A DNA stretch of 64,000 bases from Lentibacter algarum (GTDB taxonomy: Bacteria; Pseudomonadota; Alphaproteobacteria; Rhodobacterales; Rhodobacteraceae): assembly GCF_018860975.1 (NCBI RefSeq), contig NZ_JAHKQI010000008.1, positions 311,746 to 375,745 on the forward strand. Reading direction: 5' to 3'. A program made the translations under genes and the position numbers. This document shows positions 3,845 through 63,613 of the stretch, one piece after another; position 1 is the first letter of the stretch, and every line of letters starts with the position of its first letter. The notes under the pieces were generated by a model, which worked only from the letters and a program-made list of their open reading frames with translations, did not search any database and was not told the origin of the DNA.

Positions 3845-6610
3845 TTACGCTTTGGCGAGGTCGCGCAGCACGTAATGCAGCACGCCTCCGTGCTCGATGT
3901 ATTCGATCTCAATTGCGGTATCGATGCGGCACTTGAGGGTGACCGGTTTCACCTTTCCGTCGGCCATAGTGATGGTGCAGTGCACTTCTTGCAGTGGTTG
4001 AATCGCATCGAGGCCTGAGATGCTAACGCTTTCTTCACCTGTGAGACCGAGTGATGACCGGCTGTCGCCGTTGGTAAACTCAAACGGAATAACCCCCATA
4101 CCCACGAGGTTTGAGCGGTGAATGCGCTCAAAGCTTTCCGCGATCACGGCTTTGACGCCCAAGAGAGCGGTGCCTTTTGCTGCCCAGTCGCGCGATGAGC
4201 CTGCGCCATATTGCGCGCCTCCGAAAATGACCAGCGGGGTGCCCAGCTTTTGATAGGCCATAGCCGCATCATAGATCGACGCTTGCTTGCCGTCGGGGCC
4301 TTTGGTGTAGCCGCCTTCGACGCCATCAAGCATTTCATTTTTGATGCGGATATTGGCGAAGGTGCCGCGCATCATGACTTCGTGATTTCCGCGGCGGGAG
4401 CCGTACGAGTTGAACTCGCGCACCGGAACTTGGTGATCTTTCAAGTAGCGGCCCGCAGGCGTGTCTTCCTTGAAGGAGCCAGCGGGTGAAATGTGGTCGG
4501 TGGTTACAAAGTCACCCAAGACGGCCAAAACACCTGCGTTTTCAATATTGCTGATCTTGCCGGGGTTTTTGTCCATCCCCTGAAAATAGGGAGGGTTCTG
4601 AATGTAGGTCGAGGCCGGGGGCCAGTCGTAAGTTTCGGCAGCCGGAACTTCAACAGCCTGCCATTTGTCGTCGCCCTTAAATACGTCGGCATACTTTGAT
4701 TGGAACGCCTCGCGGGTGACCGTTTTTTCAACCAGTTCTGCGATCTCTTGCGATGTTGGCCAAATGTCTTTGAGGTAAACGTCCTTTCCGGTTTTGTCTT
4801 GGCCGAGAGGGTCCTTGGCCAGGTCAATATTCATGTCGCCCGCAAGCGCATAGGCTACAACCAGCGGAGGTGAGGCCAGATAGTTGGCACGCACATCCGG
4901 TGAGATGCGCCCCTCGAAGTTGCGGTTGCCCGACAAAACCGAGGTTGCAATGATGTCATTGGTGTTGATGGCTTCGCTGAGTTCGGATTGAAGCGGGCCG
5001 GAGTTGCCGATGCATGTCGTGCAGCCGTAGCCGACAAGGTTAAAGCCGATGGCGTCGAGGTCATCCTGCAAGTCAGCCGCTTCAAGATAAGCCGTAACAA
5101 CCTGCGAGCCAGGCGCGAGTGACGTTTTCACCCAAGGCTTGCGGTTGAGGCCAAGCTCGCGGGCTTTTCGGGCCACGAGGCCAGCGCCGATCATCACATA
5201 AGGGTTAGAGGTGTTGGTGCAGGAAGTGATCGAGGCGATGACAATCGTTCCGTCGTGGATGGTGTAGTCTTCGCCTTTCACACGGGCGCGTTTGTGCTTT
5301 CCAATGTCGCCAGGGATGCTGCGTGGTGCAATTGCGCCGCCTTCATCTGCCCACTCGGCTTTGTCTTCTTGTTCGGCCGACCACTCGAGCCGCTCGCCGC
5401 TGATGTATTTGCCAAATGTCTCGGCAGCGGCATCAAGTGGGACAAAGTCTTGCGGGCGCTTTGGCCCTGAGATCGCTGGGACGATGGTGTTCATATCCAA
5501 GCTCAGAGTGCTTGAGTAAATCGGCGCATAGTCGTCGCCGCGCCACAAGCCGTTCTCTTTGGCGTAGGCTTCAACCAGCGCTATGCGGTCTTCATCACGG
5601 CCGGTGGTGCGCATGTAGCGAAGAGTTTCGCCGTCGATCGGAAAGAAGCCGCAAGTTGCACCATACTCTGGCGCCATGTTGGCGATAGTGGCGCGGTCTG
5701 CCAGTGGAAGGCGGTTGAGCCCTTCGCCGAAGAACTCGACAAACTTGCCGACAACGCCGTGTGCGCGCAACATTTCTACGACTTTCAGAACCAAATCAGT
5801 GCCGGTGGTGCCTTCCATCATGTCACCGGTCAGCTCAAAACCGACGACTTCGGGTATCAGCATCGAAATTGGCTGACCAAGCATCGCTGCTTCGGCTTCG
5901 ATGCCGCCAACACCCCAACCGAGCACAGCGACACCATTCACCATTGTTGTGTGGCTGTCGGTGCCGACAAGCGTGTCAGGGTAAGCGACATTCACGCCGT
6001 TCTGGTCTTCGTCCGTCCAGACGGTTTGCGCCAGATACTCAAGGTTCACTTGGTGGCAAATGCCGGTTCCCGGAGGCACGACGCGAAAGTTGTTAAACGC
6101 TGATTGCCCCCACTTGAGGAACTGGTAGCGCTCCATGTTGCGCTCGTATTCACGATCAACGTTCATCTGGAAAGCACGTGGGTTGCCGAACTCGTCGATC
6201 ATTACCGAGTGATCGATCACAAGATCAACAGGGGCCAGCGGGTTGATTTTTTGAGCATCACCGCCGAGGGCTACAATCCCGTCACGCATGGCGGCCAAGT
6301 CAACCACAGCTGGAACGCCGGTGAAGTCTTGCATCAAAACGCGAGCAGGGCGGTAGGCTATCTCCCTCGGGTTTTTGCCGCCATTGGCCCCCCACTCGGC
6401 GAAAGCCTTGATGTCGTCAACCGTGACAGTCTTACCATCTTCATAGCGGAGCATGTTTTCCAGAACCACTTTAAGAGCTGCCGGCAGGCGCGAGAAATCA
6501 CCTAGGCCAGCGGCCTCGGCGGCCTTGACTGAATAGTAGTCAATTGACTGCGTGCCGACCTTGAGTGTTCTGCGTGTTTTGGTGCTGTCTTGTCCTACGG
6601 CGATGGTCAT
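3845..6610 (-). CDS. acnA: Aconitate hydratase A (AcnA)
   Basis: Converts citrate to isocitrate in the TCA cycle, using a [4Fe-4S] cluster. 921 residues, the AcnA/IRP-type length. Cluster ligands are C464 (TSCTNTSNP), C530 and C533 (GCTTCIGNSGP). The C-terminal swivel domain carries the YGAGSSRDWAAKG substrate-binding loop. The ATG at 6610 (MTIAVGQ) is chosen over the open frame to 6640 because GGAGG lies just upstream. It is divergent from acnB, with 226 bp between the two starts, so one gap holds both promoters. Having both types next to each other suggests separate conditions of use. Confidence 0.97.
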   Translation of the reverse strand: MTIAVGQDSTKTRRTLKVGTQSIDYYSVKAAEAAGLGDFSRLPAALKVVLENMLRYEDGKTVTVDDIKAFAEWGANGGKNPREIAYRPARVLMQDFTGVPAVVDLAAMRDGIVALGGDAQKINPLAPVDLVIDHSVMIDEFGNPRAFQMNVDREYERNMERYQFLKWGQSAFNNFRVVPPGTGICHQVNLEYLAQTVWTDEDQNGVNVAYPDTLVGTDSHTTMVNGVAVLGWGVGGIEAEAAMLGQPISMLIPEVVGFELTGDMMEGTTGTDLVLKVVEMLRAHGVVGKFVEFFGEGLNRLPLADRATIANMAPEYGATCGFFPIDGETLRYMRTTGRDEDRIALVEAYAKENGLWRGDDYAPIYSSTLSLDMNTIVPAISGPKRPQDFVPLDAAAETFGKYISGERLEWSAEQEDKAEWADEGGAIAPRSIPGDIGKHKRARVKGEDYTIHDGTIVIASITSCTNTSNPYVMIGAGLVARKARELGLNRKPWVKTSLAPGSQVVTAYLEAADLQDDLDAIGFNLVGYGCTTCIGNSGPLQSELSEAINTNDIIATSVLSGNRNFEGRISPDVRANYLASPPLVVAYALAGDMNIDLAKDPLGQDKTGKDVYLKDIWPTSQEIAELVEKTVTREAFQSKYADVFKGDDKWQAVEVPAAETYDWPPASTYIQNPPYFQGMDKNPGKISNIENAGVLAVLGDFVTTDHISPAGSFKEDTPAGRYLKDHQVPVREFNSYGSRRGNHEVMMRGTFANIRIKNEMLDGVEGGYTKGPDGKQASIYDAAMAYQKLGTPLVIFGGAQYGAGSSRDWAAKGTALLGVKAVIAESFERIHRSNLVGMGVIPFEFTNGDSRSSLGLTGEESVSISGLDAIQPLQEVHCTITMADGKVKPVTLKCRIDTAIEIEYIEHGGVLHYVLRDLAKA

Positions 6611-6784
6611 GGATGGCCTCCAGTGTGTTGGGTTACACAAAAAATGTAGCGCGTATCTTGGGAAAGTGAAGGGGCAAGGGCGACAACTGCATTTTCCAGC
6701 GCATTTTTGTTTGTTTGTTTTAGCAAACCCGTCAAAACACCCTATAGGTTCGGTGGTCAGAGCCTTGCAGTTATAGCCTTATTG

Positions 6785-6800
6785 GTATACCGCTGCATAC
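6785..6800. promoter_or_regulatory. Candidate operator upstream of acnB (matches one upstream of icd)
   Basis: GTATACCGCTGCATAC is an imperfect palindrome of form GTATRC-N4-GYATAC, ending 36 bp before the acnB start. A 14/16 identical copy lies upstream of the isocitrate dehydrogenase gene at 61313-61328. It sits where the acnB -10 region could be (a weak TTGCAG at 6765-6770 is 15 bp from TATACC), so a bound protein could block or recruit polymerase. The regulator is unknown. Confidence 0.45.
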
Positions 6801-6836: not shown

Positions 6837-9629
6837 ATGAGCTTGTATACAGATTATCTGAACGAAATCGAAGCCCGCAAAGAGCAGGGCCTACACCCAA
6901 AGCCTATAGATGATAGCGCGCTTGTGGAAGAGTTGATCGCTCAGATTAAAGATTCGGGAAATGAGAACCGCGAGGCCTCGCTGAACTTTCTGACATATAA
7001 CACTTTGCCTGGCACCACGAGTGCGGCTGGTGTCAAAGCGCGCTTCCTCAAAGAGGTTATCCTTGGCCAAGCTGTCGTCCCCGAGATCACCCCTGAGTTT
7101 GCCTTCGAGCTGCTTTCGCACATGAAAGGCGGACCATCAGTTAAAGTGCTGCTCGACATCGCGCTTGGTGAGGACGCTGCGCTGGCCGCTCAGGCCGCTG
7201 AGGTTTTGAAAACGCAGGTCTTCCTCTATGAGGCCGATACAGACGCGATTGAAGCCGCTTTTAAAGCTGGCAACACGATTGCCAAAGACTTGCTTGAAAG
7301 CTACGCCAAAGCCGAATTTTTCACCAAGCTGCCGGATGTTGCCGAGAAAATCCAGGTCGTGACTTATGTCGCGGGAGAGGGAGATATCTCGACCGACTTA
7401 CTCTCACCGGGCAACCAGGCGCACTCGCGCGCCGACCGTGAGCTGCACGGCCAGTGCTTTATCTCGCCAACCGCGCAACAAGAAATCGAAGCGCTCAAGG
7501 CGCAACACCCTGACAAACAGGTGATGATCATCGCCGAAAAAGGCACGATGGGTGTTGGCTCCTCGCGGATGTCTGGCATCAACAACGTCGCTCTTTGGGC
7601 GGGCAAGCAAGCCAGCCCCTATGTGCCCTTCGTTAACTACGCACCGATCGTCGCCGGAACCAACGGCATTTCGCCGATCTTCCTCACGACAGTTGGCGTG
7701 ACAGGCGGCATCGGGCTTGACCTTAAGAACTGGGTCAAGAAGCTTGATGCGAACGGAGACCCCGTGCTGAACGATGCAGGCGATGCGGTGCTCGAGCAGG
7801 TCTACTCTGTCGATACCGGCACCGTGCTGACCATCAACAGCAAAACCAAAGCGCTCTACAATGAAGCGGGCGACAAAGAGCTTGTCTCGCTCGAAAAATC
7901 ATTCACGCCGCAAAAAATGGAGTTCATGAAAGCTGGCAGTTCCTACGCCATCGTCTTTGGCAAAAAGCTGCAAACTTTCGCCGCTGAGGCCCTTGGTGTT
8001 AAGCTTGAGTCAGCATATGCTCCGGCAAAAGAGATCAACGTCGAAGGCCAGGGCTTCACCGCTGTTGAAAAGATCTTCAACCGCAATGCTGTCGGTGTTA
8101 AAACCGACAAGCCTCTGCACGCGGGCTCGGATGTGCGCGTTAAAGTCAACATTGTTGGCAGCCAGGACACCACCGGTCTGATGACCAGCCAAGAGCTTGA
8201 AGCTATGGCCGCAACCGTTCTGTCACCGTCAGTTGACGGCGCTTACCAGTCAGGTTGCCACACCGCCTCGGTATGGGACCTCAAAGCACAAGCCAACACG
8301 CCGCGGCTGATGAAATTCATGAATGATTTCGGCCTTGTCACCGCGCGTGATCCTAAAGGCGTCTACCACGCAATGACCGACGTTATTCACAAAGTCCTCA
8401 ATGACATCACGGTTGACGACCGCGCGATCATCATCGGCGGCGATAGCCACACGCGCATGTCAAAAGGCGTGGCGTTTGGGGCTGACTCAGGCACTGTGGC
8501 TCTGGCTCTGGCAACGGGCGAGGCGACAATGCCAATTCCTGAATCTGTCAAAGTGACGTTCAAAGGCAAAATGCAACCTCACATGGATTTCCGTGATGTT
8601 GTGCATGCGACACAATCACAGATGCTCGCCCAACACGGCGACAACGTCTTCCAAGGCCGTATCATCGAGGTGCATATCGGCACATTGCTGGCCGACCAAG
8701 CCTTCACCTTCACCGACTGGACAGCCGAGATGAAGGCCAAAGCCTCGATCTGTATCTCAAACGACGAAACTCTGGTTGCCTCGCTAGAGATAGCCAAAAG
8801 CCGCATCAAGGTGATGATAGAGAAGGGCATGGAGCACGAAAGCGGCATGCTGCAAAACCTTGTTGATATCGCTGACAAGCGTATTGCCGAGATCAAATCA
8901 GGTGAGGTGCCGGCGCTTACGCCAGACGACAACGCCAAGTATTTTGCCGAAGTTGTGGTTGATCTGAGCGTGATCGACGAACCTATGATCGCGGATCCTG
9001 ACGTCAACAACGCCGACGTTTCCAAGCGCTACACCCACGACACTATCCGGCCGATCTCTTTCTATAAGGCCGAGAAGAAGGTTGATCTTGGCTTCGTCGG
9101 ATCTTGCATGGTTCACAAGGGTGATATCAAGATCGTCGCGCAAATGCTGCGTAACCTTGAGGCCCAGAGCGGTAAGGTCGAGTTCAAAGCGCCGCTGGTT
9201 GTTGCCGCGCCAACTTACAACATCATCGACGAACTCAAAGAAGAGGGCGACTGGGAAATTCTCCAGCGTTATTCGGATTTTGAGTTTGATGACTTTGCGC
9301 CCAAAGGCAAAGCGCGCACCGAGTATGAGAATGTTCTCTATCTCGAGCGCCCCGGTTGTAACCTCTGTATGGGCAACCAGGAGAAAGCCGCCAAGGGCGA
9401 CACTGTTCTGGCAACATCAACCCGCCTGTTCCAAGGCCGCGTTGTTGAAGACAGCACCGAGAAGAAGGGCGAAAGCCTCCTGGCCTCGACACCTGTAGTG
9501 GTTCTCGCCGCTATCTTGGGGCGCACACCTACGGTTGAGGAATATAAAGCCGCAGTTGAGGGCATTGATTTGACCAAGTTTGCCCCGCCAAACCAAGTGC
9601 CTTTGGCGGCCAACTCGGCGCACTTCTAA
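6837..9629 (+). CDS. acnB: Aconitate hydratase B (AcnB) / 2-methylisocitrate dehydratase
   Basis: AcnB-type aconitase, a family whose members may also act on 2-methylisocitrate in propionate breakdown. It starts with the AcnB HEAT-like domain (about residues 1-155), then the swivel domain with the GTMGVGSSRMSG loop, then the catalytic domains. Cluster cysteines are C757 (GSCMVHKGD), C841 and C844 (GCNLCMGNQ). At 930 residues it is longer than E. coli AcnB (about 865), and the spacing from C757 to C841 is also longer. No prp genes are nearby, so a methylcitrate role is not supported by context. It is divergent from acnA. Confidence 0.97.
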   Translation: MSLYTDYLNEIEARKEQGLHPKPIDDSALVEELIAQIKDSGNENREASLNFLTYNTLPGTTSAAGVKARFLKEVILGQAVVPEITPEFAFELLSHMKGGPSVKVLLDIALGEDAALAAQAAEVLKTQVFLYEADTDAIEAAFKAGNTIAKDLLESYAKAEFFTKLPDVAEKIQVVTYVAGEGDISTDLLSPGNQAHSRADRELHGQCFISPTAQQEIEALKAQHPDKQVMIIAEKGTMGVGSSRMSGINNVALWAGKQASPYVPFVNYAPIVAGTNGISPIFLTTVGVTGGIGLDLKNWVKKLDANGDPVLNDAGDAVLEQVYSVDTGTVLTINSKTKALYNEAGDKELVSLEKSFTPQKMEFMKAGSSYAIVFGKKLQTFAAEALGVKLESAYAPAKEINVEGQGFTAVEKIFNRNAVGVKTDKPLHAGSDVRVKVNIVGSQDTTGLMTSQELEAMAATVLSPSVDGAYQSGCHTASVWDLKAQANTPRLMKFMNDFGLVTARDPKGVYHAMTDVIHKVLNDITVDDRAIIIGGDSHTRMSKGVAFGADSGTVALALATGEATMPIPESVKVTFKGKMQPHMDFRDVVHATQSQMLAQHGDNVFQGRIIEVHIGTLLADQAFTFTDWTAEMKAKASICISNDETLVASLEIAKSRIKVMIEKGMEHESGMLQNLVDIADKRIAEIKSGEVPALTPDDNAKYFAEVVVDLSVIDEPMIADPDVNNADVSKRYTHDTIRPISFYKAEKKVDLGFVGSCMVHKGDIKIVAQMLRNLEAQSGKVEFKAPLVVAAPTYNIIDELKEEGDWEILQRYSDFEFDDFAPKGKARTEYENVLYLERPGCNLCMGNQEKAAKGDTVLATSTRLFQGRVVEDSTEKKGESLLASTPVVVLAAILGRTPTVEEYKAAVEGIDLTKFAPPNQVPLAANSAHF

Positions 9630-42386: not shown

Positions 42387-42430
42387 TGTCTGCACGCATT
42401 ATGCACTATGGTATGCACTGCTATATGCAC
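42387..42430 (+). repeat. 44-bp intergenic repeat, copy A (12-bp period TATGCAC iterons)
   Basis: Three exact TATGCAC units start at 42400, 42412 and 42424, a 12-bp period, preceded by TGTCTGCACGCAT. A second copy, 40/44 identical in reverse orientation, lies at 54357-54400. It sits between the convergent 3' ends of phoB and the LysR gene, where no promoter is expected. Confidence 0.75.
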
Positions 42431-42481
42431 AGCATAGGCCTAACAGTAGATTAACCTTAACATGCGAAACCCGCATCAAAC

Positions 42482-56869: not shown

Positions 56870-57496
56870 TCAGCTCAAAGACGTCACCCAAAGCACGGTG
56901 GCGTCTTCGGCACTGACCGACACGAGGTTGTGGCCCATCGAAGCGTCGTAATAGGCGCTGTCGCCGCGGCGCATTTCGACCGGTTCATAGAACTCGGTAT
57001 AGAGCCGCGCGACGCCTGTCAGCACATAGAGAAACTCTTCGCCGTCATGGCGCACCCAGCCGTCAAACTCGCTCATGTCGCGGGCGTGAATGCGCGCACT
57101 ATAGGGCAGCATCTTTTTGTTGCTGATCCCCTCGGCGAGCAGCCCGTGCTCATATGTTGTGGTCAGGTGGCGCGCGCCTTCGCCTGACTTTGTCACGCTC
57201 ATGCGGCCTGTCACCTGGTTGTTTTCCGGCGGCGTAAACAGCTGCGGCACCGAGATTTCAAGGCCGGTTGCCAGCTTTTTGAGCGCTTCAAAAGTCGGAG
57301 ACATCTGGCCATTCTCGATCTTGGAGAGGGTCGAGCGCGCAAGGCCGGCCTGTTTGCTGGCTTGCTCAAGCGTCAGACCAAGCGACTTGCGCAACTCGCG
57401 CACCCGCGCGCCAAGATCAAGCTCGGCTGTATGCGGGCTTTCGCCGTTTTCGCGGGCAATGCGGATGAGTGTCGTCGGGGCGTGTGTATCGGTCAT
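56870..57496 (-). CDS. XRE-cupin transcriptional regulator
   Basis: 208 residues from the ATG at 57496 (MTDTHAPTTL); a TTG start at 57517 is possible but lacks a better ribosome binding site. HTH_3 domain (about 28-85, LGLTLEQASKQAGLARSTLSKIENGQMSPT), then a cupin domain (about 130-205, HDGEEFLYVLTGVARLY and YYDASMGHNLVSV). Such regulators sense small metabolites. It is divergent from an acyl-CoA synthetase gene, its likely target. Confidence 0.9.
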   Translation of the reverse strand: MTDTHAPTTLIRIARENGESPHTAELDLGARVRELRKSLGLTLEQASKQAGLARSTLSKIENGQMSPTFEALKKLATGLEISVPQLFTPPENNQVTGRMSVTKSGEGARHLTTTYEHGLLAEGISNKKMLPYSARIHARDMSEFDGWVRHDGEEFLYVLTGVARLYTEFYEPVEMRRGDSAYYDASMGHNLVSVSAEDATVLWVTSLS

Positions 57497-57554
57497 GGCG
57501 CGTTCATAGGCGTGCAAGCAGGCACTTGCAACTCGCGCGCGTGCGGCCTAGCAC

Positions 57555-60082: not shown

Positions 60083-61286
60083 AAAAATTAAAATGTCCAA
60101 AGGTGAGTTCATCGCTTTGATGGCGATGATGATGGCGCTGACAGCTTTCTCGATTGACGCTATGCTGCCTGCCCTGCCGGAAATTGGCCAAGAACTGAGC
60201 CCCGAAGCGCCCAACGCCGCGCAGCTTATCCTCACGTCATTTGTGTTGGGTATGGGGCTCGGCACGTTTTTTACCGGCCCGCTGTCTGATAGCTTTGGCC
60301 GCAAGCCTGTGCTTTATGCGGGCATCCTGCTTTATATCGTTGGTGCGGCCTTGGCCTTTTTTGCCCAAACACTTGAGCTGGTTCTGGCGGCGCGGGTTGT
60401 GCAGGGGCTTGGCATTGCTGGCCCGAGGATCGTCAGCCTTGCGGTTATCCGTGATCTTTTTGAAGGCCGGTATATGGCGCGGTTGATGTCGATCGTGATG
60501 ATGATCTTTACGCTCGTTCCCGCGATTGCACCGCTGATTGGCGATGGCATTATCGGCCTCACGGGGTGGCGCGGTATCTTTGCGGCTTTTGTGGTTTTTG
60601 CGCTGGTGGTGACAAGCTGGTTCGGGCTGCGCCTTGAGGAGACCCTGCCCAAAGAGCACCGCCGGGCCTTTAATGCTCGCAAGCTTTGGAGCGCACTTAA
60701 GGAGATGCTGACATATCCGGTCGTGCGGGTTGTTCTGATCGTTCAGACGCTTTGCCTTGCTGTGTTGTTCGGCGCGCTTTCCAGTATCCAGCCGATTTAT
60801 GACATTACGTTTGATCGTGCCGAGAGCTTTCCTTACTGGTTCGGGCTGGTGGCTATCTGTGCGGGGAGCGCCAGTGTGTTGAACGCCACGCTTGTGGTGC
60901 GCATTGGCATGCGTGCGATGACAACAGCGACGATAGCGGTGCAGGTGGTGCTTTCGGGCGCGATGATCGTGTTGACGACCCTGCCCTTGCCTGATGTTGT
61001 CTACTTCGGCCTTGTGGTGTTCTGGCAGTTCTCGCTGTTCGCTATGGCCGGGCTGACACTGGGAAACCTCAACGCAATGGCGATGGAGCCTTTGGGCCAT
61101 ATAGCCGGTCTGGCGGCGTCAATTCTGAGCGGTGTTTCCACGGTGTTCGCGATGGTTTTCGCGGTGCCGATCGGCCTTGCCTTTGATGGAACGCCGCGGC
61201 CTGTTGCGATCGGGGTATTTGTGCTCTGCGCCTTCGCCCTGTTGTTTATGTTGCGCTTCAAGCGGATCGAAGCGTTGCAGGCCTAG
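60075..61286 (+). CDS. Bcr/CflA family MFS drug efflux transporter
   Basis: 403 residues with twelve membrane segments. The family start FIALMAMMMALTAFSIDAMLPALPEIG, motif A-like GPLSDSFGRKPVL and the GIAGPRIVSLAVIRDLFEG segment are typical of Bcr/CflA. Exports drugs or metabolites such as dipeptides in known members; the substrate here is unknown. Last gene of a three-gene run. Confidence 0.92.
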   Translation: MTEKIKMSKGEFIALMAMMMALTAFSIDAMLPALPEIGQELSPEAPNAAQLILTSFVLGMGLGTFFTGPLSDSFGRKPVLYAGILLYIVGAALAFFAQTLELVLAARVVQGLGIAGPRIVSLAVIRDLFEGRYMARLMSIVMMIFTLVPAIAPLIGDGIIGLTGWRGIFAAFVVFALVVTSWFGLRLEETLPKEHRRAFNARKLWSALKEMLTYPVVRVVLIVQTLCLAVLFGALSSIQPIYDITFDRAESFPYWFGLVAICAGSASVLNATLVVRIGMRAMTTATIAVQVVLSGAMIVLTTLPLPDVVYFGLVVFWQFSLFAMAGLTLGNLNAMAMEPLGHIAGLAASILSGVSTVFAMVFAVPIGLAFDGTPRPVAIGVFVLCAFALLFMLRFKRIEALQA

Positions 61287-61312
61287 GCGGAAATCGTCTC
61301 AAGTTTTTTTAT

Positions 61313-61328
61313 GTATACCTTTGCATAC
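61313..61328. promoter_or_regulatory. Candidate operator upstream of icd (matches one upstream of acnB)
   Basis: GTATACCTTTGCATAC, 14 of 16 bases identical to the site at 6785-6800 before acnB, in the same orientation relative to the gene, 80 bp before the icd start. Both fit GTATRC-N4-GYATAC. Confidence 0.45.
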
Positions 61329-61408
61329 CGTCTTTCCTTTTGCCCGTGTCTGGGCTATGAGGCAGGCAATTCCAGTTGAACAACAACAGCGATCGAGAGG
61401 GATCATAG

Positions 61409-63613
61409 ATGGCTCAGTCAAACACACCCGACATTGTTTACACCAAAGTTGACGAAGCGCCCGAGCTTGCCAGCGCCTCGCTTTTGCCGATCATCCAGCG
61501 CTTTGCAAAGGCGGCTGGTATCACTGTCGGCACCAAGGATATCTCGCTCGCAGGACGTATCTTGGCGACATTTCCCGAGGCCCTGAGCGCTGATCAGCAG
61601 CAATCTGACGATCTGGCTGCACTTGGCGAGTTGGTGAAAACCGCTGAAGCCAATGTGATCAAACTTCCCAATATCTCGGCCTCTGTGCCACAGCTTGTTG
61701 CCGCGATCACCGAGCTTCAAGGCAAAGGCTACGCCCTGCCCGACTACCCTGAAACGCCCGAAACCGCCGAAGAAAAAGCCGTGCGCGCCAAGTATGACAC
61801 GCTCAAAGGCTCGGCTGTGAACCCGGTGCTGCGTGAAGGCAACTCTGACCGCCGCGCCGCCGCCGCGGTTAAGAACTATGCGCAGAACAACCCGCACCGC
61901 ATGGGCAAATGGACGGCCGACAGCAAGACGCGCGTCGCTTCGATGTCAGGCGGAGACTTTTTCTCAAACGAGACATCGGCCACACTCGCCAAAGCTGCCA
62001 CAGCCAAGATCGTGCTGGAAGGCGCATCTGGCGAGACCGTCCTCAAGGACGCCGTGAGCTACCCCGCCGGCACAGTTGTTGACGCGACTTTCATGAGCGC
62101 CAAAGCGCTTGATGCCTTCCTGCTTTCAGAAATCGATAAGACCAAAACCGAAGGCACGCTGTTTTCGTTGCACATGAAGGCGACGATGATGAAAGTCTCT
62201 GACCCGATCATCTTTGGCCACGCGGTCAAAGCCTTCCTCGCACCGGTGTTTGAAAAACACGGCTCGGCGATCGAGGCGCTTGGTGTGAACCCGAACCAAG
62301 GCCTTGGCGCGCTGCTTGAGAAAGTCGCTGACAATGCCGAAATCATGGCTGATATCGACGCTTGCATGGCCGCCCGCCCGCCGATGTATATGGTCGACTC
62401 AGACAAAGGCATCACCAACCTGCATGTGCCGTCTGATGTGATCATCGACGCTTCAATGCCTGCGCTCATTCGCGCTGGCGGCAAAGGATGGGGCCCTGAT
62501 GGCAACGAGTCAGACGCCAACTGTGTGATCCCTGATGACAGCTACGCACCTGTCTATGACGAGGCCGTGAAGTTCTTCAAAGCCAATGGCGCGCTTGATC
62601 CGGCCACTGCTGGCACCGTGCAAAACGTCGGTCTGATGGCGCAAAAAGCCGAGGAATACGGCAGCCACCCAACCACCTTTGAGATGCCGGAAGCTGGCGT
62701 GGTCAAAATGATCCTCGAAGACGGCACAGTGTTGCACGAACTCAAGGTTGAAGCTGGCGACATCTGGCGCTCGGCCAGCGCCAACAAGGCGCCGATTGAA
62801 GACTGGGTGAACCTTGCGATTGCCCGCCAAAAAGCCACCGGCTATCGCAGCATTTTCTGGCTCGACGCCAACCGCGCCCACGATGCCGAGTTGATCGCCT
62901 ATGTGAAGCCGATCCTTGAGGCTCAAGGCGTTGCTGACAAGTTCGAGATCATGGCTCCGCGCGAAGCCACGAAGGCCTCGCTTGAGACCATCACCAAGGG
63001 CGAGAACAGCATCGCCATCACCGGCAACGTGCTGCGCGACTATCTGACCGATCTGTTCCCGATCCTTGAGCTGGCGACTTCGGCCAAGATGCTCTCGATC
63101 GTGAAGCTTATGAATGGTGGTGGCTTGTTTGAAACCGGTGCTGGCGGCTCGGCTCCCAAGCACGTGCAACAGCTTGATGCGGAAAACCACCTGCGTTGGG
63201 ACAGCCTTGGTGAGTTCTGCGCGCTTGGTGAAAGTCTGCAGTTCCTTGCGGAAGCCAAAGGCAACGACAAGGCCCGCATTTTGGGCCAAGCGGTTGACGC
63301 AGCCACGCAGGGCATCCTTGACAACAACCGCTCGCCAAGCCGCAAAGTCGGTGAGCCTGACAACCGCGACAGCCACTACTGGTTTGCCCGTTACTGGGCC
63401 GAAGCCTTGGCGGCTCAGTCAGACGATGCCGCCCTTGCCGCCGAGTTTGCACCCGTCGCGAAAGCGCTGGCCGAAGGTGAAGCAGCCATCGTTGCCGAAC
63501 TGGCCGCCGCTCAAGGCAAGCCTGCCGACACAGGCGGTTACTATACCGCCGACGCTGATAAACTTGCCTCAGTGATGCGCCCGAGCGCGACACTCAACAA
63601 GATTATCGGCTAA
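61409..63613 (+). CDS. icd: Isocitrate dehydrogenase, NADP-dependent, monomeric type
   Basis: Oxidises isocitrate to 2-oxoglutarate with NADP. 734 residues, the large monomeric class. Diagnostic stretches: [48 protein letters not shown] and [21 protein letters not shown]. The start has GAGAGGGA upstream. The stop overlaps the stop of the convergent glutamine amidotransferase gene (63610-63613). Uses the product of the aconitases at 3.8-9.6 kb. Confidence 0.97.

Follow-up and report, generated by a model that had tools for sequence, protein, structure and literature searches.

The closest described counterpart of the sites discussed here is a gene group that Imam et al. (2015, PLoS Comput Biol, PMC4344238) defined as cluster 62 in their regulatory network of R. 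sphaeroides. In the sections of that article cited here, the genes of the cluster share an inverted repeat, include Icd (RSP_0446 and RSP_1559), malyl-CoA lyase, citrate synthase and NuoA-N, and are ascribed to "an as yet unidentified TF". Among regulators of known structure, Atu1419, a VanR-type GntR/FCD repressor of Agrobacterium, binds the 10-mer ATGTATACAT, in which Arg45 reads a guanine; Asn137, His141, His192 and His214 hold a Zn ion, and the cited sections describe the citrate in the pocket as fortuitous and as not releasing the DNA (PMC7797058). A second member with a solved structure is PmiR of Pseudomonas aeruginosa (7xp0/7xp1), which was published under a title that names it a sensor of 2-methylisocitrate. 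Two regulators of R. sphaeroides, the GntR protein AkgR (RSP_0981) and RSP_1663, also act on central carbon metabolism in the bacterial family considered here. We take RSP_1663 to be CceR.

The site pair in the window

The window, i.e., the whole stretch of 64,000 nucleotides of Lentibacter algarum DNA that was analysed, contains two exact copies of GTATRC-N4-GYATAC: GTATACCGCTGCATAC at 6785-6800 upstream of acnB, and GTATACCTTTGCATAC at 61313-61328 upstream of the gene for a monomeric isocitrate dehydrogenase, icd. The two 16-bp sites are identical at 14 of 16 positions, lie in the same orientation and are separated by 54.5 kb, which confirms the coordinates, orientation and identity given in an earlier note on this DNA. 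The gene names used in that note also hold under family models: acnB (6837-9629, plus strand, 930 aa) is aconitate hydratase B (NF006690, E 1e-290), and icd (61409-63613, plus strand, 734 aa) is a monomeric NADP-dependent isocitrate dehydrogenase (TIGR00178). Both sites are on the plus strand. The acnB site, with boxes at 6785-6790 and 6795-6800, is separated from the acnB start codon by 36 bases; acnA (3845-6610, minus strand), whose name is likewise borne out by a model match, diverges from acnB and, read from the sequence, has its start codon at 6610-6608, the listed open reading frame extending to 6640. The icd site, with boxes at 61313-61318 and 61323-61328, lies 80 bases before the icd start codon. 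A stem followed by a T run, resembling a terminator for the upstream MFS gene (61285-61310, plus strand), ends just before this site.

When up to two mismatches are allowed, the window holds nine matches, with 3.3 expected and none of 100 shuffles reaching that number. A different repeat, near TATGCACT/ATATANCAGTGCATA, is found at 42396-42437, where it separates a PhoB-like gene from its neighbour on the opposite strand. Further copies exist elsewhere in the genome, where at least 12 of the two-mismatch matches to the operator pattern take the form ATATAGCAGTGCATAC or ATATACCAGTGCATAA; this repeat may be an operator or a repeat of another system.

The 3.65-Mb genome contains three exact sites, against four occurrences of the reversed pattern, which served as the control. 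The third exact site, GTATACAGGAGCATAC, occupies the 36-base gap between the genes for a type II citrate synthase and pta. With one mismatch, further sites are found just upstream of sdhC (a Sdh_cyt match) and upstream of the tricarballylate dehydrogenase gene tcuA; another such match (L016) lies inside a coding region and is likely due to chance. The earlier note had raised the possibility that the motif is frequent at random places in the genome, and the three exact sites of the scan turn out to be those at acnB, icd and citrate synthase/pta. The number of exact sites within this one genome is not enriched; their placement and conservation are not chance.

Conservation in the genus and the family

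The site precedes icd in all seven genomes of the genus and acnB in all four with an acnB match, the L. algarum genome being counted in both (the remaining three of the seven gave no acnB match). The motif is therefore conserved before orthologous genes, which the earlier note had proposed to check. The citrate synthase/pta site recurs in three further genomes (L045, L050 and L064). In one of the genus members without an acnB match, a site identical to that of acnB in the window lies 264 bases before a gene that looks like atpH by eye (L046, G002:C48:50775-50790).

We extended the survey to 100 genomes of the Rhodobacteraceae, one per genus. The form GTATAC-N4-GCATAC occurs 108 times in 65 of them, compared to seven times for the reversed control, and 85 of these 108 sites precede genes of central carbon metabolism: idhD (32), acnB (13, two of them shared with acnA), icd (10), acnA alone (7), fumC (6), acs (6), citrate synthase/pta, malate synthase G, pntA, sucC and nuoA (2 each), and malyl-CoA lyase (1). 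Curated models confirmed one example each of fumC, malate synthase G, pntA, sucC and the dimeric NADP-isocitrate dehydrogenase. The acs example, which is a truncated piece, and those of pta and citrate synthase (best model type II) fell below the model cut-off; the example of malyl-CoA lyase gave a sub-threshold match to citE and was named by eye, as was the nuoA example, for which no model matched at 1e-30.

The other sites comprise seven before genes for SPFH- or NfeD-like proteins (by eye), four in a hydroxyacid dehydrogenase/tcuA group, single cases and seven that were left unassigned. The single cases include a trans-aconitate methyltransferase with a match below the cut-off. The single cases tam, thl, prpE, VOC, DUF4170, tcuA and mcl matched queries taken from these same loci or kind, and only mcl is counted among the 85. 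The SPFH-like (L044, L108 and L123) and NfeD/YqiJ-like (L052, L068, L088 and L126) targets, 7 of the 108, have the site 1-20 bases upstream, and these membrane proteins do not fit a TCA-cycle regulon. At four loci (L243, L249, L244 and L043), GTATAC-N4-GYATAC precedes a small open reading frame and a 2-hydroxyacid dehydrogenase gene; tct-, prpF- and tcuAB-like genes belong to the same clusters, joined in some genomes by a GntR gene.

Of 40 further idhD upstream regions that lack the exact form, 20 match GTATRC-N4-GYATAC without mismatch, six with one and one with two mismatches, compared to about 0, 0.05 and 0.55 of 40 in shuffled sequences; the remaining 13 are worse, so that 27 of the 40 promoters have a site with at most two mismatches. 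The site lies 61-91 bases from the idhD start codon. Dimeric and monomeric isocitrate dehydrogenases belong to different protein families, and because both of these unrelated types carry the site, the site follows the reaction, not the gene.

One could dismiss the pair in the window as a chance resemblance without function, given that exact matches in this genome are no more frequent than matches to the control. However, the placement before TCA-cycle genes together with the conservation in genus and family refutes this explanation, and we regard its probability as negligible.

In the genome that we took for R. sphaeroides (G067), nine sites have at most one mismatch, compared to two for the control. 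Both idh genes are preceded by such a site, as are acnA, gltA, fumC and mdh; one more is at the start of a propionyl-CoA-synthetase-like gene, and two are at places that we do not interpret. As in cluster 62, both icd/idh genes and the citrate synthase gene gltA (one mismatch) are preceded by a site (L071, L097 and L222). In contrast to cluster 62, nuoA and the second malyl-CoA lyase gene (RSP_1771) are not among the nine, although nuoA-like and malyl-CoA-lyase-like genes have the site upstream in other genomes of the family. Judged by target genes, cluster 62 probably represents this regulon, which was thus partly predicted in 2015; what goes beyond cluster 62 here are targets such as acn, fumC, acs, mdh, sdh and others, the family-wide view of their conservation, and a candidate for the regulator. 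A later identification of the regulator or the motif was not found in the literature searched; most subscription papers were outside its scope, and one may exist.

Architecture of the site and its position in promoters

Among the 27 idhD sites that were not chosen by the exact pattern, positions G1, A3, T4, C6, G11, A13, T14 and C16 never vary, and the variation is confined to positions 2, 5, 12 and 15. The operator is thus close to GYATRC-N4-GYATRC, which reads better as two abutting palindromic boxes than as one plain inverted repeat. Such GYATRC boxes lie one helical turn apart and would probably be filled by two dimers side by side; since two 10-base boxes, as in Atu1419, would abut exactly, a pair of dimers on the same DNA face is favoured.

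The position of the sites relative to the promoters differs between targets. A scan for sigma-70 promoters found none for acnB or icd at the expected places, and the promoter positions given here derive from motifs alone. Behind the operator, YTTYC-N14..20-CTAD is found in 31 of 58 idhD and 11 of 16 icd promoters, with 0.4 and 0.1 expected from shuffled sequences. In the window, the putative icd promoter (61332-61360, plus strand) consists of a weak -35 element, CTTTCC (61332-61337), a 17-base spacer, and the -10 element CTATGA (61355-61360); placing the start about seven bases after the -10 element would put icd transcription near 61367 and the centre of the operator near -46. In 14 of 15 acnB promoters TTGM lies 10-24 bases upstream of the operator, compared to 1.2 in shuffled sequences. 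For the acnB gene of the window this corresponds to a -35-like TTGCAG at 6765-6770 (plus strand), a spacer of 15 and a putative -10-like TATACC at 6786-6791 (plus strand), i.e., inside the operator. The operator of citrate synthase/pta reaches almost to the two start codons.

Read from position, the site at icd/idh, just upstream of a poor -35 element, would suit an activator; the site at acnB, which seems to take the place of the -10 element, and the one at citrate synthase/pta would suit a repressor. This suggests an effect that depends on position, with activation at icd/idh and repression at acnB and citrate synthase/pta. The earlier note had envisaged a dimeric repressor on GTATRC-N4-GYATAC; the repressor position fits acnB and not icd, and its single inverted repeat would give way to two GntR boxes. 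In a simpler scheme, one dimer would cover all 16 bp, read as a single inverted repeat, and would act as a plain repressor at every target. The symmetry of the logo over about 22 bp is compatible with a single dimer, and the site positions at acnB and citrate synthase/pta are what a plain repressor would use. However, each box is itself palindromic, with an invariant G and C at its two ends, like the 10-mer of a relative, and at icd/idh the site is located upstream of a weak -35 element. We therefore consider this simpler scheme rather unlikely and retain two abutting boxes with an effect that differs between targets.

A candidate regulator of the GntR/FCD group

Several regulators were considered and set aside. 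The motif of AkgR, GTGATCAC, differs from the GYATRC boxes at the sites, and that of RSP_1663 is GTT-N6-8-AAC. According to the sections of the articles cited, class-2 RamB recognises two boxes with an 18-bp spacer (PMC10370305) and CrbR an ACTU motif (PMC5715377). Against a direct-repeat site of a response regulator stands the symmetric logo. A palindromic variant was seen upstream of a LacI gene (L231); this gene was discarded because the variant is equally common in the control. A first clustering of regulator genes located beside the targets yielded nothing but a neighbour of icd/idh that resembles Rrf2/IscR, in two genomes. The window itself encodes XRE-cupin, PhoB-like, LuxR-like, AraC-like and ArsR regulators (by eye; ArsR also by model match). 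The XRE-cupin-like gene (56873-57547, minus strand), 4 kb upstream of icd, diverges from an acyl-CoA-ligase-like gene (by eye).

The operator is also found in tricarballylate/aconitate clusters with tct-, prpF- and tcuAB-like genes (by eye), some of which include a GntR gene. Because tcuA clusters carry the operator beside a GntR gene, we turned to this group of regulators. In the L. algarum genome, the GntR protein of the tcuA cluster, whose gene adjoins such a site, is 44% identical to a core GntR/FCD protein of 215 aa that is encoded outside the window (G000:C1:291717-292361) and is our candidate. It has an N-terminal GntR winged helix-turn-helix (PF00392, 64 bits, cut-off 27) and a C-terminal FCD domain (PF07729, 94 bits, cut-off 24), with which fold matches agree: the predicted structure (pLDDT 84.9) matches DhdR, McbR, PmiR and Atu1419 with Z scores of 18.9-22.1.

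Most of the 100 family genomes encode an ortholog of the candidate at 63-81% identity. In G067, the genome taken for R. sphaeroides, the ortholog lies at C4:468999-469616. It is missing, with a best match of at most 40% or none, from ten genomes (G014, G030, G045, G049, G070, G074, G075, G084, G099 and G106); in G064 the gene is interrupted by a stop, and in G010 and G033 the identity is only 53-55%. The idh site is present in 58 of the 60 genomes with the candidate and in none of the 11 that lack it or have only a broken or diverged version (Fisher 3e-11). This comparison covers 71 of the 74 idhD genomes, G066, G100 and G114 being left out with their nearby site assigned to icd; G077 (gene cut by a contig end) and G088 (despite a stop in its match) count as having the candidate, G064 and the 53-55% cases were placed by judgement among those without, and two of the 11, G014 (82%) and G049 (74%), are incomplete. 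In G036 and G040, which have the candidate but no idh site, the site is located upstream of icd (L107 and L084). Across the full set of 100 genomes, 62 of the 87 that encode the candidate contain exact sites, as do 3 of the 13 that do not, with one site each (Fisher 0.0013). A tree of 51 idhD proteins, whose bootstrap had not settled, requires eight changes of the presence label, at least three of them forced by well-supported branches; the sister genomes G074 (without) and G082 (with) are an example. The site and the candidate protein are lost together.

E32, R43, T44 and R47, invariant in 41 orthologs, match by spacing the DNA-contact residues of Atu1419. N127, H131, H175 and H197 of the FCD metal site are likewise invariant in the 41; they correspond to those of Atu1419 by spacing and, as metal ligands, also by alignment with PmiR, where three His and an Asn/Asp align. 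The operator form GT(N)xAC of the GntR/FCD group is present in the motif that tracks the candidate gene. Atu1419 resembles the candidate in its winged helix-turn-helix and FCD domain, its metal site of an Asn and three His, and its fold (Z 18.9), and its GTATAC operator core recurs in the sites studied here; it differs in that, according to the sections cited, its operators are single 10-mer palindromes and its targets hydroxycinnamate genes (PMC7797058). PmiR is the closest solved sequence (E 4e-27, fold Z 21.5), but it is only about 32% identical and has the regulon and ligand of another pathway.

We infer that the candidate protein binds the site. An alternative explanation accepts the regulon but assigns it to a different transcription factor, such as one of the TetR or XRE type; the GntR protein would then merely have a similar distribution. 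Operators of these types can also be 16-bp palindromes, the GntR gene is distant from the targets and has no such site of its own (2 of 73 loci within two mismatches), and only this one regulator was profiled across genomes, so that another with the same distribution is possible. We nevertheless judge this explanation improbable, given the idh site in 58 of 60 genomes with the protein versus 0 of 11 without, the repeated joint loss on the idhD tree, and the GTATAC core known for the relative Atu1419. The common regulator that the earlier note thought plausible for acnB and icd is well supported by the placement and conservation of the sites, and its guess of a GntR-type protein agrees with the co-occurrence, the domains and the relative's operator core. 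On this sequence evidence, the acnB and icd sites are very probably operators of one TCA-cycle/acetyl-CoA regulon of the Rhodobacteraceae, with the core GntR/FCD protein as its most likely regulator.

Implications for central carbon metabolism

The metal-holding FCD pocket of the candidate may sense a tricarboxylate such as citrate, isocitrate or aconitate. By analogy, a tricarboxylate is the first guess and the probable ligand because PmiR was named a 2-methylisocitrate sensor. One could go further and picture a single metal-dependent, tricarboxylate-sensing FCD regulator as the master switch of acetyl-CoA oxidation in the Rhodobacteraceae, which would bind as paired dimers to abutting boxes, activate either type of isocitrate dehydrogenase and fumarase from a position next to a weak -35 element on its upstream side, and repress acnB and citrate synthase/pta by occluding their promoters. 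As a whole we offer this picture tentatively, as a possibility that falls somewhat short of even chances.

A motif described in 2015 before TCA-cycle genes of R. sphaeroides can now be traced through an abundant family of marine and phototrophic bacteria. The regulon stays with the isocitrate dehydrogenase step even when the enzyme family differs, and it now has a specific, testable GntR/FCD candidate. If the master-switch picture is true, this regulator would set the flux around the citrate-isocitrate node.
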